Source of the DNA: Azotobacter beijerinckii | GTDB lineage: Bacteria > Pseudomonadota > Gammaproteobacteria > Pseudomonadales > Pseudomonadaceae | DNA: 64,000 nucleotides | Direction: 5' to 3' | Assembly: GCF_900110885.1 (NCBI RefSeq) | Contig: NZ_FOFJ01000011.1 | Coordinates: forward strand, 1-64,000 | In this document: positions 8,744 through 18,686 of the stretch, piece after piece | Layout of the letters: each line of letters opens with the position of its first letter | How positions within the stretch are numbered: the stretch's first letter is position 1 | Program-made: the position numbers and the translations under genes | The notes under the pieces: generated by a model | The model's input: only the letters and a program-made list of their open reading frames with translations | Database searches by the model: none | What the model was told of the DNA's origin: nothing

Positions 8744-9505
8744 ATGCCGCTTCGCTACCTGTTCAAACACCTCCTGCTGCCGCCGTCCGGGCTGTTGCTC
8801 CTGCTGGCGCTCGGCTGGTGGTTGCGCCGCCGCGCGCCGCGGGCGGCCGGGCTGTGCTTCGCCGTCGGGCTGGGCGGGCTGTGGCTGCTCAGTCTGCCGG
8901 TGACGGTGGAGTGGGCGGCGCGGGCCCTCGAGCGCGAGCCGGCCCTGGCCGAAGTGCAGTGGCCGCAGCTGGCGCAGCGCGCCGAGGCCATCGTGGTGCT
9001 GGGGGGCGGGCGCGAGCGCGGCGATCCGGCCTGGGGCGGCGACCAGCCGAGCCCGCTGGCGCTCGAGCGGCTGCGCTACGCCGCCCGTCTGGCGCGGGCC
9101 TCGGGCCTGCCGCTGCTGGCCAGCGGCGGCCTGCATTTCGGCGCGCCGCCCAGCGAGGCGGCGCTGCTCGGCGAGGTGCTGGAGCGCGACCATGGCTTGG
9201 CGCTGCGCTGGCGCGAGGAGCGCAGCCGGACGACCTGGGAAAACGCCCGCTACAGCGCCGAGCTGCTGCAGCGCGAGGGTATCCGCCGGGTGGTGCTGGT
9301 GACCCAGGCCTGGCACATGTCGCGGGCCCGCTGGTGCTTCGAGCGGGCCGGCTTCGCGGTGCTGCCCGCTCCGGCGGGCTTTCTCGGCGTGCCCAACGCT
9401 CGTCCGCTGGGCGGCTGGCTGCCCGAGGGGCGGGCGCTGTGGCAGAGCGGCCTGCTGCTCAACGAGGCGCTGGGGCAGCTGCTCTATCCGTTGCTCTACC
9501 GCTGA
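8744..9505 (+). CDS. YdcF/ElyC-family (DUF218) membrane protein
   Basis: A 253-residue protein. Two N-terminal membrane segments (around residues 8-25 and 36-55) are followed by a DUF218 domain with the typical IVVLGGG, then SGGLHFGAPPSEA, a RSRTTWENARYS segment and VVLVTQAWHMSRA. The family includes ElyC and SanA, envelope proteins linked to peptidoglycan precursor handling or envelope integrity. The exact reaction is not known. The start at 8744 is chosen because GAGG lies 7-8 nt upstream. The ATG at 8723 lacks one. Its 3' end overlaps the 3' end of lnt by 10 bp on the opposite strand. Confidence 0.82.
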   Translation: MPLRYLFKHLLLPPSGLLLLLALGWWLRRRAPRAAGLCFAVGLGGLWLLSLPVTVEWAARALEREPALAEVQWPQLAQRAEAIVVLGGGRERGDPAWGGDQPSPLALERLRYAARLARASGLPLLASGGLHFGAPPSEAALLGEVLERDHGLALRWREERSRTTWENARYSAELLQREGIRRVVLVTQAWHMSRARWCFERAGFAVLPAPAGFLGVPNARPLGGWLPEGRALWQSGLLLNEALGQLLYPLLYR

Positions 9506-11049
9506 GCCTCGACGGCCGGTCCGCTTGCCGCGGACTGCTCGGTGCGCCGGCGCAGCAGCGCCCAGCCGAGCAGCAGGACGGCGAGGGTCGCCAGCGGCCA
9601 GACGCGCCACTGCAGGTAGGGGGTGAGTCCCTGCATCGGCGTCACTTCGCCGTAGAGCACGGCGCGCTGGAACTGCGGCAGCTGCTGGGTGACCCGCCCG
9701 AAGGGGTCGATCAGCGCGGTGATACCGTTGTTGGTGGTGCGGATCATCCAGCGGCCGGCTTCCAGGGCGCGCATCCGCGCCATCTGCAGGTGCTGCAGGG
9801 GGCCGATGGAGGTGCCGAACCAGGCGTCGTTGCTGATGGTGAGCAAGAGGTCGCTCTGTGCGGCCAGGCCGGCGGCGAATTCCGGGTAGACCACCTCGTA
9901 GCAGATGTAGGGGGCGATCCGCCAGCCGCGGGCCTGCAGCGGCGGCTGGTCGGCCGGGCCGCGGGCGAAGTCGGACATCGGCAGGTCGAAGAAGGCGATC
10001 AGCCCGCGCAGCAGCTCCTGCAGCGGCACGTATTCGCCGAAGGGCACCAGTTTTTGCTTCAGGTAGGTGCCCGAGCCTTCGCCAGCCACGACGATGCCGT
10101 TGTAATAGCGCGGCTCGCCCTGGGCGTTGCGCTGGCGAATCGGTACCCCGGTGAGCAGCGCGAGGTGGCGCGGGCGGGCGTAGCGGTCGAGGCCGGCGAG
10201 GTAGTCCTCGGCGTACTCCTTGAGAATCGGCACGGCGGTTTCCGGCCAGACCACCAGGTCGACCGCGGCGGCGCGCTGCAGGGTGAGGTCGCGGTAGAGC
10301 ATCAGTTGGGCGCTGAGCTGTTCCGGGTCCCACTTGAGGCTCTGCGACACGTTGCCCTGCACCGCGGCGATCTTCAGCGGCGCGTCGGCGGGGTGGGTCC
10401 AAGCATGGCCCTGGAGCGCCAGGCCGAGTCCCCAGGGGGCGAGCAGCAGGCCGAGGGCGCCGGCCAGCGCCAGCGGCCGGCGGATCAGGCGCGGCAGGTT
10501 GATCGAAAGCGCCGCGGACAGCGCCAGGACGAAGGAGAGCAGCCAGACCCCGCCCAGCGGCGCCAGCCCGGCGAGCGGCCCCTCGGTTTGGCTGTAACCG
10601 GCGTAGAGCCAGGGAAAGCCGGTGAGGAACCAGCCGCGAAAGCCCTCCAGGGCCAGCCAGAGGGCGGCAAAACCCAGGGCGTCGGCCAGCGGCGCGGCGT
10701 CCCGGCGCAGCCAGCGGCTCCATAGCCAGGCGGGCAGGGCGAAGAAGAGCGCCAGGGCGAGCATCAGGGCGAAGGTGAGCAGGCCGGCCAGCGGCACCGA
10801 GGCGGCGCCGTAGTCGTGGATGCTGATGTAGATCCAGCCGGTGCCGGCGGCGTAGAGGCCGAAGCCGTAGCACCAGCCGCGCCACAGCGCGGCCCGCGGC
10901 GCCAGCTCGCGCAGGCCCAGGTAGAACAGGGCGATCGACAGCAGCGCCAGCGGCCAGAGGTCGAACGGTGCCTGGGCGAGAGGGGTCAGGGCGCCGGCGG
11001 CCAGGGCCAGCAGATTGCCCGGCCAGCCGGGGCGGGTGATCCAGCGCAT
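9496..11049 (-). CDS. lnt: Apolipoprotein N-acyltransferase
   Basis: A 517-residue inner-membrane enzyme that adds the third acyl chain to bacterial lipoproteins. It has a hydrophobic N-terminal half with several membrane helices and a C-terminal nitrilase domain. The catalytic features are WPETAVP (Glu), KLVPFGEYVP (Lys region) and PYICYEVVYP (Cys). The start MRWITRPGWPGNLL at 11049 is the family start. An upstream in-frame Met at 11145 would add a poor 32-residue leader. It is the last gene of miaB-ybeZ-ybeY-corC-lnt, as in E. coli, and is separated from corC by a strong stem-loop. Confidence 0.95.
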   Translation of the reverse strand: MRWITRPGWPGNLLALAAGALTPLAQAPFDLWPLALLSIALFYLGLRELAPRAALWRGWCYGFGLYAAGTGWIYISIHDYGAASVPLAGLLTFALMLALALFFALPAWLWSRWLRRDAAPLADALGFAALWLALEGFRGWFLTGFPWLYAGYSQTEGPLAGLAPLGGVWLLSFVLALSAALSINLPRLIRRPLALAGALGLLLAPWGLGLALQGHAWTHPADAPLKIAAVQGNVSQSLKWDPEQLSAQLMLYRDLTLQRAAAVDLVVWPETAVPILKEYAEDYLAGLDRYARPRHLALLTGVPIRQRNAQGEPRYYNGIVVAGEGSGTYLKQKLVPFGEYVPLQELLRGLIAFFDLPMSDFARGPADQPPLQARGWRIAPYICYEVVYPEFAAGLAAQSDLLLTISNDAWFGTSIGPLQHLQMARMRALEAGRWMIRTTNNGITALIDPFGRVTQQLPQFQRAVLYGEVTPMQGLTPYLQWRVWPLATLAVLLLGWALLRRRTEQSAASGPAVEAQR

Positions 11050-11126
11050 CGGGAATCCTTGCTTGAAAAGAGGCGGCGCAAGCTTAATGGAGCGGCTCGC
11101 GGCATGCCATGGCGGTCCGTTGAGAG

Positions 11127-14969: not shown

Positions 14970-15418
14970 GGGGGTTCGGTCTGGGTGATTCGAAGGACCG
15001 CGCATTATAGGTAGGCGCGAAAGGCTCGGCCAGAGATGCCGGGCGAGCGGCCAGGGCAATCGCGCGACCAGCCTCTGGCGTTGGACGAGGATTGAGCGGT
15101 GGCGAGTGGGGTTTTCCACACTTCCCGCCCTGCCTCGTCGACCCGCGCCGCGAAGCCCTCCGCCCTGCAGGACAGCGCGATGATCGCCCGCTGCTCCCTT
15201 CTGCGCGGCTATGACCCCGCCGGGTCGAAAAACCAATGTGCAACTCCGAACCACGGTCGAATACCCGTTTCGGGCGATCATGCACCCGTTCGCGGGCGTG
15301 AGGATGCACTTCCTCGATATAGCGAAAAGTGCCGCGCAAGTACCGATCTGAAAAAATAGATATAACCCGGCAAATCCAGGGTTGAATTGAAATGGCTCGA
15401 CTGTTTTTTCATGTTTTA

Positions 15419-15448
15419 TTGACGGTTATTTGATGGGCGATTTGTTAT
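15419..15448 (+). promoter_or_regulatory. Candidate sigma70-type promoter in the FAAL leader
   Basis: TTGACG at 15419-15424 (five of six matches to the -35 consensus) is followed after 18 bp by TGTTAT at 15443-15448 (four of six matches to the -10). It lies in the AT-rich patch and would give a leader of roughly 375 nt before the FAAL start. This is a pattern match only. Confidence 0.3.
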
Positions 15449-15719
15449 TGAAATATATATGGAGTATTGGTGGCGTGCTTGATTGGTTCGATGAGTCGAT
15501 TTCGGCACGCGGGGCCCGATAGGGCGTTGCCGCTTCTCGCCACGGCTTTGCCCAGGCGATCCGTCTATCCGATTAAATTAACAAACCAACCGCTCAGGCC
15601 GCTAGTCATGGCGGATTTGCGGCTCGCAGTGCAGTATTCCCGATTGCCCACATGCATCTCTTTCGCGGTGTCTCGTTTTGAGGGAATTTGACCGGTAAGA
15701 ATGGACTACGCTGACCGAG

Positions 15720-15738
15720 AGTCGAATGATCGTCGACT
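15720..15738. promoter_or_regulatory. Candidate operator palindrome upstream of the FAAL gene
   Basis: AGTCGA at 15720-15725 and TCGACT at 15733-15738 form a perfect inverted repeat spaced by 7 nt, about 95 bp before the FAAL start. The size and spacing resemble a dimeric regulator site. No regulator gene is adjacent, so the ligand and protein are unknown. Confidence 0.3.
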
Positions 15739-15832
15739 TCGTTGGTTTTAATGATTCAGTACGCTTCCAGCCTCGTCGATCGGTTCGCTGCAGTGAGTAG
15801 CTGTTGCGCTGAAAGATTTAAGGATCGAACTA

Positions 15833-17578
15833 ATGGCCAAGCTTTATATGTCTGCAACGCTTTCCCGGCACGTTTTTCCCCAGCGGTTGGCCGACTTTTC
15901 GACACTGGCGGAAGCCCTCGATTACGCAGCGCGTGGGCATACCGGTTTGAATTTCTACGATGGCCGCTGCCGTCTGACGGCCGTCGTCCAATATGCCGCC
16001 CTGAGGCGGGAGGCGCTGGCCGTGGCCAGGCGCCTTCACGGGCTTGGCCTGCGCAGGGGCGATCGGGTCGCCTTGATCGCCGATACCGAGCCGGGGTTCA
16101 TGGAAGCCTTCTATGGCTGTCAGTACGCCGGCTTCATACCGGTGCCGCTGCCCATTCCGTCAGGCTTGGGCTGCCATGTCTCGTACGTCGAAAAGCTCGG
16201 CGCTCTGCTGAAAAGCTGCGAGCCGACCGCCATCCTGGCCCCCTCGGAGTGGCTGCCGCTCGCGCAGGAGGCTGCCGGCTCGTGCGGCGCGCTGTTCGTC
16301 GGCTCGGTCAAGGAGATCAAGACCCGGGCGGTTCCGCCCGTGGAACTGGAGCCTTCCCGGCCGGATGAGGTGGCCTACCTTCAGTACACGTCCGGGAGTA
16401 CCCGCTTTCCCCGTGGCGTGGTCGTTACCCAGCGCGCGGTAATGGCCAACCTGCAAGGGATGATTCGGGACGGGCTGGGCGTGCGCCCGGGGGACCGCTG
16501 CGTCTCCTGGTTGCCGTTCTATCACGACATGGGGCTGGTCGGGTCCGTACTGGGCCCGATGGCGGCGCAGTTGTCGGTGGACTATCTGCGCACCCCGGAC
16601 TTCGCGATGCGGCCGAGGCAGTGGCTGAACCTGATCGGCCAGAATCGGGGCACCATTGCCTTGGCCCCGCCCTTTGGTTACGACCTGTGCTCCCGGCGTG
16701 CCCGCGAGGGCGAGGTAACGCGTTTCGATCTTTCCAGCTGGCGTATCGCCGCGATCGGCGCGGAGCCGATTCGCGCCGAGGTGCTGGAGCGGTTCGCGGA
16801 GCAGTTCGCGCCGGCGGGCTTCGATCGCACGGCCTTCGTGCCTGCTTATGGCCTGGCGGAAAGTACCCTGGGCGTCAGCTTCGCTCGCCGCGGTGTCGGA
16901 GTTCAGGTGGATCGGGTCGATCGCTGGGCGTTGGAGCATCGGTCGACGGCCGTGCCGTCCCGCGGCGAGGGAAGCAAGGCCAGTACCTTCGTCAACTGTG
17001 GTGCGGCCCTTCCCGGACACCGGCTCGAAATACGCGACGAGGCCGGACGTCCCTTGCCGGAGTGCCGGGTCGGGCGGATAACCCTGCAGGGACCCAGCCT
17101 GATGTCGGGCTATTTCCGCGATGAGGAATCCACGCAAGCCCATATGGACGGCGACTGGCTCGATACCGGCGACCTCGGCTATCTGCATAACGGGGAGCTG
17201 TTCATTACCGGAAGGCAAAAGGATCTGCTGATTGTCCGGGGCCGAAACATCTGGCCGCAGGACGTCGAATACCTGCTCGAGTCCCAGCCCGAGGTTCGCT
17301 CCGGCGACGTGATCGCTTTCCTGGTCCCGGCGGAAGCGGACCCGCGAGTGGTGGTGCTGGTCCAGTGCCGTGCAACCGATCCGGAAAAACGGGAGAGCTT
17401 GGTGCGCACCCTGGCCGGATTGATCAACGGCGAGTTCGGTTTTACGGCAACGGTTGAACTCGTTCCGCCGCATTCCCTTCCGCGGACCTCGTCGGGGAAG
17501 CCCTCGCGGGCCGAAGCGCGCAAGCGTTTCCTGGCGCAAAGACAGTCCGAATCAGGGCTGTCGGTGGCTTTCGGGTAG
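15833..17578 (+). CDS. Fatty acyl-AMP ligase (FAAL-type adenylate-forming enzyme)
   Basis: A 581-residue member of the acyl-activating superfamily. Core motifs: YLQYTSGSTRFPRGV at residues 183-197, SWLPFYHDMGLVG, PAYGLAEST, DTGDLGYLHNGELFITGR and KDLLIVRGRNIWPQDVE, then a C-terminal PRTSSGKPSR with the adenylation-type Lys. HDMGL and the GRNIWPQD-type C-domain are usual in fatty acyl-AMP ligases (FadD32/FadD28-like), which form acyl-AMP and load an acyl carrier protein instead of CoA. A stand-alone ACP gene lies 565 bp downstream, the obvious acceptor. The start at 15833 has AAGGA 9 nt upstream. No polyketide or peptide synthetase is nearby, so the final product is unknown. Confidence 0.85.
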   Translation: MAKLYMSATLSRHVFPQRLADFSTLAEALDYAARGHTGLNFYDGRCRLTAVVQYAALRREALAVARRLHGLGLRRGDRVALIADTEPGFMEAFYGCQYAGFIPVPLPIPSGLGCHVSYVEKLGALLKSCEPTAILAPSEWLPLAQEAAGSCGALFVGSVKEIKTRAVPPVELEPSRPDEVAYLQYTSGSTRFPRGVVVTQRAVMANLQGMIRDGLGVRPGDRCVSWLPFYHDMGLVGSVLGPMAAQLSVDYLRTPDFAMRPRQWLNLIGQNRGTIALAPPFGYDLCSRRAREGEVTRFDLSSWRIAAIGAEPIRAEVLERFAEQFAPAGFDRTAFVPAYGLAESTLGVSFARRGVGVQVDRVDRWALEHRSTAVPSRGEGSKASTFVNCGAALPGHRLEIRDEAGRPLPECRVGRITLQGPSLMSGYFRDEESTQAHMDGDWLDTGDLGYLHNGELFITGRQKDLLIVRGRNIWPQDVEYLLESQPEVRSGDVIAFLVPAEADPRVVVLVQCRATDPEKRESLVRTLAGLINGEFGFTATVELVPPHSLPRTSSGKPSRAEARKRFLAQRQSESGLSVAFG

Positions 17579-17694
17579 ATCCGCCTTGAACCGTTGTCGG
17601 GGATGTTTCGTGGCGGGTACCGAACGGGTGCGGGGCGCCGAACGATGGCGAGGCGCCGGCACGGAGACGATCATCCGTTGCGCCGGAGGGGTGC

Positions 17695-18084
17695 ATGGCA
17701 GCTTCGCCTTTCAAGCGGATCAATATCGACGGCAGTGGGCGCCTGACCGAGGCCATACTGAAGAGTGGCTGTTGCAAGCGTTTACCATTGATGTCCTCGC
17801 GGGCTGCGCGACATCCGGAATTGTTGTGGTATACCTCTTCGAAGTTCAGGGACGAGCATCAGGTGAGGCGAGTGGCCAAGGATATCGCCGTGGCTGTTTT
17901 CAGGAGTAGGACGGTGCGGCGGTGTACGGGCCTGGTGATCTTGATGAATGCGGCCCTTGTTCGAATGGTTGCTTCGCGGATGGCTGCGAAGCCCTGGAAC
18001 AGAACGATGCGCGGCTCACCTTCCTTCGCGGGGAGGATCTGGCCAGCAGCCGTGCTGCAGTGGCTGCCCCATAAATCTTGCTGA
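17695..18084 (+). CDS. Small unknown ORF between FAAL and ACP, possibly frameshifted
   Basis: A 129-codon frame opening with a strong Shine-Dalgarno (GGAGGGG, 3 nt before the ATG). The first 70 residues have GC3 use and composition like a real gene (MAASPFKRINIDGSGRLTEA, later HPELLWYTSSKFRDEHQV). After about 17900 the codon quality drops, and a different frame looks more coding (for example DARLTFLRGEDLASS at about 18005-18050), so a frameshift or decay is suspected. No family was recognised. Its position between an acyl-AMP ligase and an ACP suggests a once-functional acyl-transfer partner, which is inference. Confidence 0.4.
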   Translation: MAASPFKRINIDGSGRLTEAILKSGCCKRLPLMSSRAARHPELLWYTSSKFRDEHQVRRVAKDIAVAVFRSRTVRRCTGLVILMNAALVRMVASRMAAKPWNRTMRGSPSFAGRIWPAAVLQWLPHKSC

Positions 18085-18143
18085 GAAGAGCCTTGCAGGA
18101 GCGCTGGCGCAAGGCAAATCCAGGAGTCAAGAGAGAGTTGCCC

Positions 18144-18404
18144 ATGATTTCCCAAGAGAAAATACTGGAACGGCTATTTTTCCACTTGGATCGCCTGGCT
18201 TTTCCCGGAGAGTCGATCCACCCGAGCGTCGATTTGATCGAGGAGCTTGGCCTCGACTCTATCAATGCCATGGATCTTGTGATGGAACTCGAAGACGAAT
18301 TCGACATTTCCATCCCCTTGAACGTGTTGACCGACGTGCATACGCCGACCCAGCTGGCGCAGGCGGTCTTGTCGATGATGGAGCATGCCGACGATGTCGC
18401 TTGA
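18144..18404 (+). CDS. Stand-alone acyl carrier protein
   Basis: An 86-residue acidic protein with the phosphopantetheine site ELGLDSINAMDL, the modified Ser being residue 39. It has the usual four-helix ACP pattern, including DEFDISIP before helix III. It is not the fatty-acid synthase AcpP, because its sequence diverges and it lies apart from fab genes. The ATG at 18144 follows AGAGAG. An upstream in-frame ATG at 18078 would add 22 atypical residues. With the upstream FAAL it forms a likely load-and-carry pair for an activated fatty acid. Confidence 0.85.
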   Translation: MISQEKILERLFFHLDRLAFPGESIHPSVDLIEELGLDSINAMDLVMELEDEFDISIPLNVLTDVHTPTQLAQAVLSMMEHADDVA

Positions 18405-18686
18405 TGGATTCTGAAATCGCGACGATCCCGGACGAGCCAGACCCGGTGCTGTGTCAACCGTCAATAGACGGATAAAGCCTGCGCCGTTTGACCCGGGCAT
18501 CCGGTGGTAAGCGGACGGTCGACCGTGGCGCCCCGGGTTGTCGCAGTGCCGCTGCCAGGGTGCCGCTCCGGCGCGTCAGGTCTCGATGCGGTCGGTCGCC
18601 GCGTGGCCCGGCCATGTCGGCCCGTTGCCGTGCGGGGACGTGTGTAGACGAACTCGAGTCAGGCTCCGGCTCTTCGCCGCGCCGCG

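Follow-up and report, generated by a model that had tools for sequence, protein, structure and literature searches.

The closest described counterparts of the locus discussed here are the sphingolipid genes of Proteobacteria, in which, as described for Caulobacter, the ligase AasR charges a dedicated acyl carrier protein (ACP), AcpR, rather than CoA or the housekeeping ACP (PMC9386255). Acyl-AcpR is preferred by serine palmitoyltransferases (SPTs), including that of E. coli BL21(DE3), and SPTs are reported to accept the AcpR of a different species (PMC9386255). The gene names aasR, cerR, acpR, spt and cerS are those of PMC11324152, where the set is described as a contiguous cluster in Azotobacter vinelandii, an organism expected to make phosphosphingolipids. 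For fatty acyl-AMP ligases (FAALs), the elements that reject CoA have been described in EcFAAL, namely W224, M231, F279 and the helix T252-R258 (PMC8460268). Here, we describe an island in a 64,000-nucleotide stretch of an Azotobacter draft genome (G000:C180:1-64000; 4.94 Mb in 182 contigs), referred to below as the window, which is very probably a degenerate partial copy of a ceramide/phosphosphingolipid biosynthesis locus, composed of aasR, a broken cerR and acpR, with spt lost. The observations are homology to the known genes, the broken cerR, a complete second cluster in the same genome, insertion-sequence relics and a position specific to this lineage.

The complete cluster lies on contig C126, where a genome search found a second ligase gene (9327-11069) whose product, C126 AasR, is 92% identical in amino acids to the window ligase. 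Downstream of it on the same strand are genes for an NAD-dependent epimerase (303 aa), an ACP, a serine palmitoyltransferase (402 aa) and an ABC transporter, in agreement with the gene order of E. coli BL21(DE3), which runs from the fatty acyl-AMP ligase through the NAD-dependent epimerase and the ACP to spt. The transferase scores 643.5 against the NCBIfam serine palmitoyltransferase equivalog (cut-off 500), and its best PDB matches are bacterial serine palmitoyltransferases. The divergent genes encode nucleotidyltransferase-like proteins, a CDP-alcohol phosphotransferase, a DAG-kinase-like protein, permeases that we call LptF/LptG-like on our own reading rather than from a family hit, and a protein with no Pfam match which we take to be the N-acyltransferase, likewise a name that does not come from a family hit. 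Judging from characterised relatives, AasR of this locus would convert a fatty acid to acyl-AMP and transfer the acyl group to the phosphopantetheine arm of AcpR, the serine palmitoyltransferase would combine acyl-AcpR with serine to give 3-oxo-sphinganine, and CerR and the N-acyltransferase would complete the ceramide. The island had been described in the earlier note as isolated and with no assembly line, a view that does not survive the presence of this cluster.

Wider comparison gives the same arrangement, the order AasR-CerR-AcpR-Spt recurring in most of 80 related loci gathered by AasR similarity. The exceptions are mainly short contigs, loci with acpR or spt elsewhere or not seen, and two Gemmatimonadetes loci that gave no cerR match above the threshold used.

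The window ligase, rightly recognised from the start as a fatty acyl-AMP ligase, is intact and matches the NCBIfam model PRK09192 'fatty acyl-AMP ligase' at 820 bits (cut-off 600), a model that it has in common with E. coli BL21 AasR (870 bits). In the tree it is placed among the cluster AasRs as the sister of C126 AasR (support 100/99), and by this placement and the PRK09192 match it belongs by sequence with characterised AasR. Its best solved structure is 3PBK, a fatty acyl-adenylate ligase (E 1.9e-208), and in an alignment to 3PBK, read by eye, the tryptophan, methionine and phenylalanine that reject CoA are conserved, while the FAAL-specific helix reads TPDFAMR as against TQDFAMR in EcFAAL, a change of Q255P within the helix. 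Because these CoA-rejection elements are kept, the window ligase is by sequence a true FAAL and not the plain acyl-CoA synthetase that would, by the earlier note, have overturned its proposal.

Between ligase and carrier, the earlier note saw an unknown, small open reading frame (ORF) preceded by a strong ribosome-binding site, which by alignment to C126 is a pseudogene fragment of cerR and not a gene. The DNA alignment falls into three blocks, comprising the ligase with its 165-base leader (88%), a cerR-like stretch (74%) and acpR (79%). The cerR-like stretch has lost the start and N-terminal part of the gene and some 280 nt near its 3' end, and it carries 8-nt and 2-nt insertions together with further 1-nt changes or shifts; with these deletions and frameshifts, no intact NAD-dependent epimerase/dehydratase frame remains. 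Used as a protein query of the genome, C126 CerR matched the window copy at residues 47-149 only. The middle ORF starts within the stretch homologous to cerR codons 48-149, runs initially in the cerR frame and is out of frame past the 8-nt insertion near 17909, and the sequence resembling a ribosome-binding site ahead of it is itself cerR-derived. Codon-position GC is 0.51/0.55/0.69 in the middle ORF against 0.68/0.50/0.78 in aasR. Divergence from C126 by codon position is nearly flat in the cerR remnant (0.19/0.22/0.30) and weighted to the third position in aasR (0.06/0.04/0.21), with acpR at 0.18/0.07/0.30. With no match in Pfam or NCBIfam and an alignment that gives a broken cerR, the middle ORF was rejected as a gene. 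With the middle ORF broken, one of the results that the earlier note had named as refuting is obtained in part; ligase and ACP are intact.

The stand-alone ACP is confirmed, with a match to PF00550, the phosphopantetheine serine in LGLDS and 82% amino acid identity to C126 AcpR, which together identify it as an AcpR. Its best start is the ATG at 18144, not the TTG at 18078, from which the frame overlaps pseudogene sequence. The acidic part of recognition helix II is kept (MELEDEFD), whereas beside the phosphopantetheine serine K41N and V42A have changed positions that are invariant in the seven other AcpRs aligned. In the window acpR adjoins aasR, with the cerR relic present and spt absent; tblastn found no spt beside the pair, and the genome search found it at C126, the other match, on contig C89, being a more distant relative (38%). 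The earlier statement that no synthase is present accordingly holds beside the pair but fails for the genome, which has the serine palmitoyltransferase on C126. The lower GC noted earlier is also seen, as a drop to 50-57% on both sides. Coordinates of all features are collected in Table 1.

Table 1. Features of the island and its junctions, in window coordinates.
Feature	Position	Strand	Remarks
Decayed 5' end of ISAs1-family insertion sequence, left junction	15052-15215	+	Terminal sequence CAGGGCAATCGC at 15052; tblastn transposase matches
Leader/promoter region common to C126 aasR	15668-15832	+	blastn alignment to parental locus begins at 15668
aasR second copy, fatty acyl-AMP ligase / acyl-AcpR synthetase	15833-17578	+	Intact, 581 aa; PRK09192, 3PBK, identity to C126, tree
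cerR pseudogene (NAD-dependent epimerase/dehydratase; proposed 3-oxo-sphinganine reductase gene)	17582-18115	+	Homology to C126 cerR
Middle ORF of the earlier note, chance ORF inside cerR pseudogene	17695-18084	+	Frame lost; no family match
acpR second copy, acyl carrier protein, 86 aa	18144-18404	+	Intact, stand-alone; PF00550 match; phosphopantetheine serine present (LGLDS)
Possible last trace of spt start	18405-18417	+	Weak alignment only, tentative; homology to parental cluster ends afterwards
Relic of IS630-like element, right edge	18453-18657	.	Pieces of 74-87% identity to G001 C6 and C71 copies

The island has miaB on one side and a Sel1-repeat gene on the other. The miaB-Sel1 site is free of it in two sister genomes, G001 and G002, with little more than a DUF1820 gene in between, and the DUF1820 gene is also found near miaB in A. 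vinelandii, although rearrangement has affected the Sel1/hemL side there. Sequence conserved with G001 and G002 ends on the left at about 15063 and 15045, respectively, and resumes at 18679. A DUF1820 gene adjoins miaB in three other Azotobacter genomes and is missing from window positions 15063-18678; a search of the window's own genome gave no DUF1820 match, an empty result that is weak alone, though in the loci of relatives this protein is easily detected.

Both junctions bear insertion-sequence relics. The left one is 86% identical over about 51 nt, and about 71% over 93 nt, to repeats near contig ends of the same genome, and the transposase of this ISAs1-type element (a name that is our own reading of the transposase), which matches PF13808/PF01609, gave tblastn matches at 15074-15215. 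The ISAs1-type repeat is found at many contig ends of the draft genome. The IS630-like label on the right is likewise our reading of an ORF (in locus L121), not a family-search result. At the island-free site of G001 (L105:2051-2116) there are inverted copies of CAGGGCAATCGC, the same terminus as that of the ISAs1-type element, and the site may have been a repeated target. Because relics are present at both ends, rearrangement mediated by insertion sequences is the likely, though not proven, means by which the island was placed. On the present reading, the partial copy arrived at the miaB-Sel1 site together with insertion sequences, taking the position of the DUF1820 gene, and it has neither a working cerR nor an spt. 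The AT-rich stretch at 15216-15667 is of no clear origin, its matches, to contigs C99 and C109 of this genome and C11 of G001, being short and of unclear meaning. Among plasmids, a search gave related FAAL-epimerase-ACP sets (e.g. in Pseudomonas sp. JS425) of about 65% identity but no close source.

The two copies have diverged unevenly. With changes polarised against other Azotobacter, AasR has 15 N : 30 S on the window branch and 23 N : 53 S on the C126 branch, and AcpR has 16 N : 16 S and 5 N : 5 S, respectively. As its N:S ratio is like that of the C126 branch, window AasR looks constrained, under purifying selection as in the parental copy, and this argues against the whole island being dead. 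Between window and C126, dS is 0.36 for AasR and 0.72 for AcpR, and the cerR remnant differs from C126 cerR by about 24%; AcpR and cerR being more diverged than AasR, a single recent duplication is, on these sequences, insufficient. Within aasR, 103 consecutive nt are identical between the copies (permutation P 0.001), which suggests gene conversion of this gene; if it occurred, conversion would make AasR look younger than AcpR and cerR. Three histories are compatible with these data and are inseparable here, namely gene conversion of aasR, an older duplication, and acquisition from a related strain; given conversion, the AasR sister pair provides no date for the duplication. In a Pseudomonadaceae sample, aasR was found in 11 of 198 genomes at the threshold used, with two copies in two of them, both Azotobacter. 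One further observation is a second, orphan and intact aasR in G001, at another site near a glmS-like gene (L097:8689-10401; G001:C16:58689-60425), around which no cerR, acpR or spt was seen in the 20-kb stretch read.

How much function the remnant retains is a separate matter. It is conceivable, if rather less than an even prospect, that the leftover aasR-acpR still works as an accessory module for loading, providing the C126 serine palmitoyltransferase with extra acyl-AcpR in trans, perhaps from its own promoter or with another chain-length preference. AasR is intact and selected much as its paralog is, the serine and start region of AcpR are preserved, as are 165 bases of leader, the use of AcpR by SPTs across species has precedent (PMC9386255), and an orphan aasR also persists in G001; against this, the window branch of AcpR has 32 changes, about three times the 10 of the parental branch, and these include K41N and V42A at invariant positions, and AasR has Q255P in its FAAL-specific helix. 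We consider it very unlikely that the orphan AasR-AcpR is instead a second loading module with a separate role, specialised by the changes around the carrier serine and diverting fatty acids to a different acceptor, e.g. cyst lipids; if that were so, the orphan AasR of the sister species G001 would be a parallel case of independent retention. On balance, the island is better read as a redundant relic than as a separate system; less certainly, the remaining AasR may still work and contribute acyl-AcpR in trans, with the AcpR copy drifting.

That the pair feeds a distant synthase, as proposed earlier, is close to the best reading when the partner is the C126 serine palmitoyltransferase, but not when it is a polyketide synthase or non-ribosomal peptide synthetase (PKS/NRPS). 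Contig C97 does encode large adenylation-domain proteins (open frames of 3703 and 3023 residues), yet it is most improbable that the pair starts a polyketide or lipopeptide on such a system, since gene for gene it has its orthologues in the aasR/acpR of sphingolipid loci, and what separates its two genes is a broken cerR rather than any gene of a PKS/NRPS. No PKS/NRPS partner was found beside the pair, and its orthologues sit in sphingolipid clusters; a FAAL serving a PKS/NRPS was rejected on this orthology and context. Just as improbable is an artefact of assembly or contamination, which the draft state of the genome (182 contigs) might suggest; completeness is 100 and contamination 0.23, a single contig of 116 kb carries the island joined to the conserved miaB and Sel1/hemL genes, with insertion-sequence relics where they meet, and the copies differ at 181 sites within aasR. 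An undescribed three-component acyl-transfer system, with the middle ORF as acceptor or transferase, has practically nothing in its favour beyond the presence of that ORF and the sequence resembling a ribosome-binding site ahead of it, the ORF being a frameshifted piece of cerR.

Read as a degenerate partial copy, the isolated FAAL-ACP find is essentially ordinary, because it is a damaged second copy of known sphingolipid genes whose complete set lies elsewhere in the genome. What looked like an orphan acyl-transfer system is thereby linked to an established pathway, and the island offers a small natural example of a copied sphingolipid locus that lacks cerR and spt but has a loading enzyme that still looks constrained. 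Before a new assembly line is postulated for a stand-alone FAAL-ACP pair in Pseudomonadota, the pair should be compared with AasR/AcpR.

Compared with known systems, the island is nearest to the Proteobacterial aasR-cerR-acpR-spt locus (ECD_02851-02854 in E. coli BL21(DE3); CC_1165-1162 in Caulobacter), with which it shares an orthologous ligase and carrier, their order and strand and the identity of the gene between, and from which it differs in its destroyed cerR, absent spt and complete second copy in the same genome. The A. vinelandii phosphosphingolipid cluster (PMC11324152), from the same genus, has the same contiguous gene set as the C126 cluster; A. vinelandii CA, however, has one aasR only, and this sole copy found (L015:10001-11743; G003:C1:4480034-4481776) has an in-frame TAG as its codon 382, which is Lys in the window copy. 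EcFAAL (PDB 3PBK), the nearest solved structure, has the CoA-rejection residues and FAAL-specific helix in common with window AasR but Gln in that helix where the window copy has Pro. The FAALs of PKS/NRPS or mycolate pathways (e.g. FadD32 and FadD28) share the enzyme superfamily and first half-reaction, whereas the window ligase scores far under their family cut-offs (276 against 975 for the FadD32 model) and has as its partner a free AcpR rather than a PKS.
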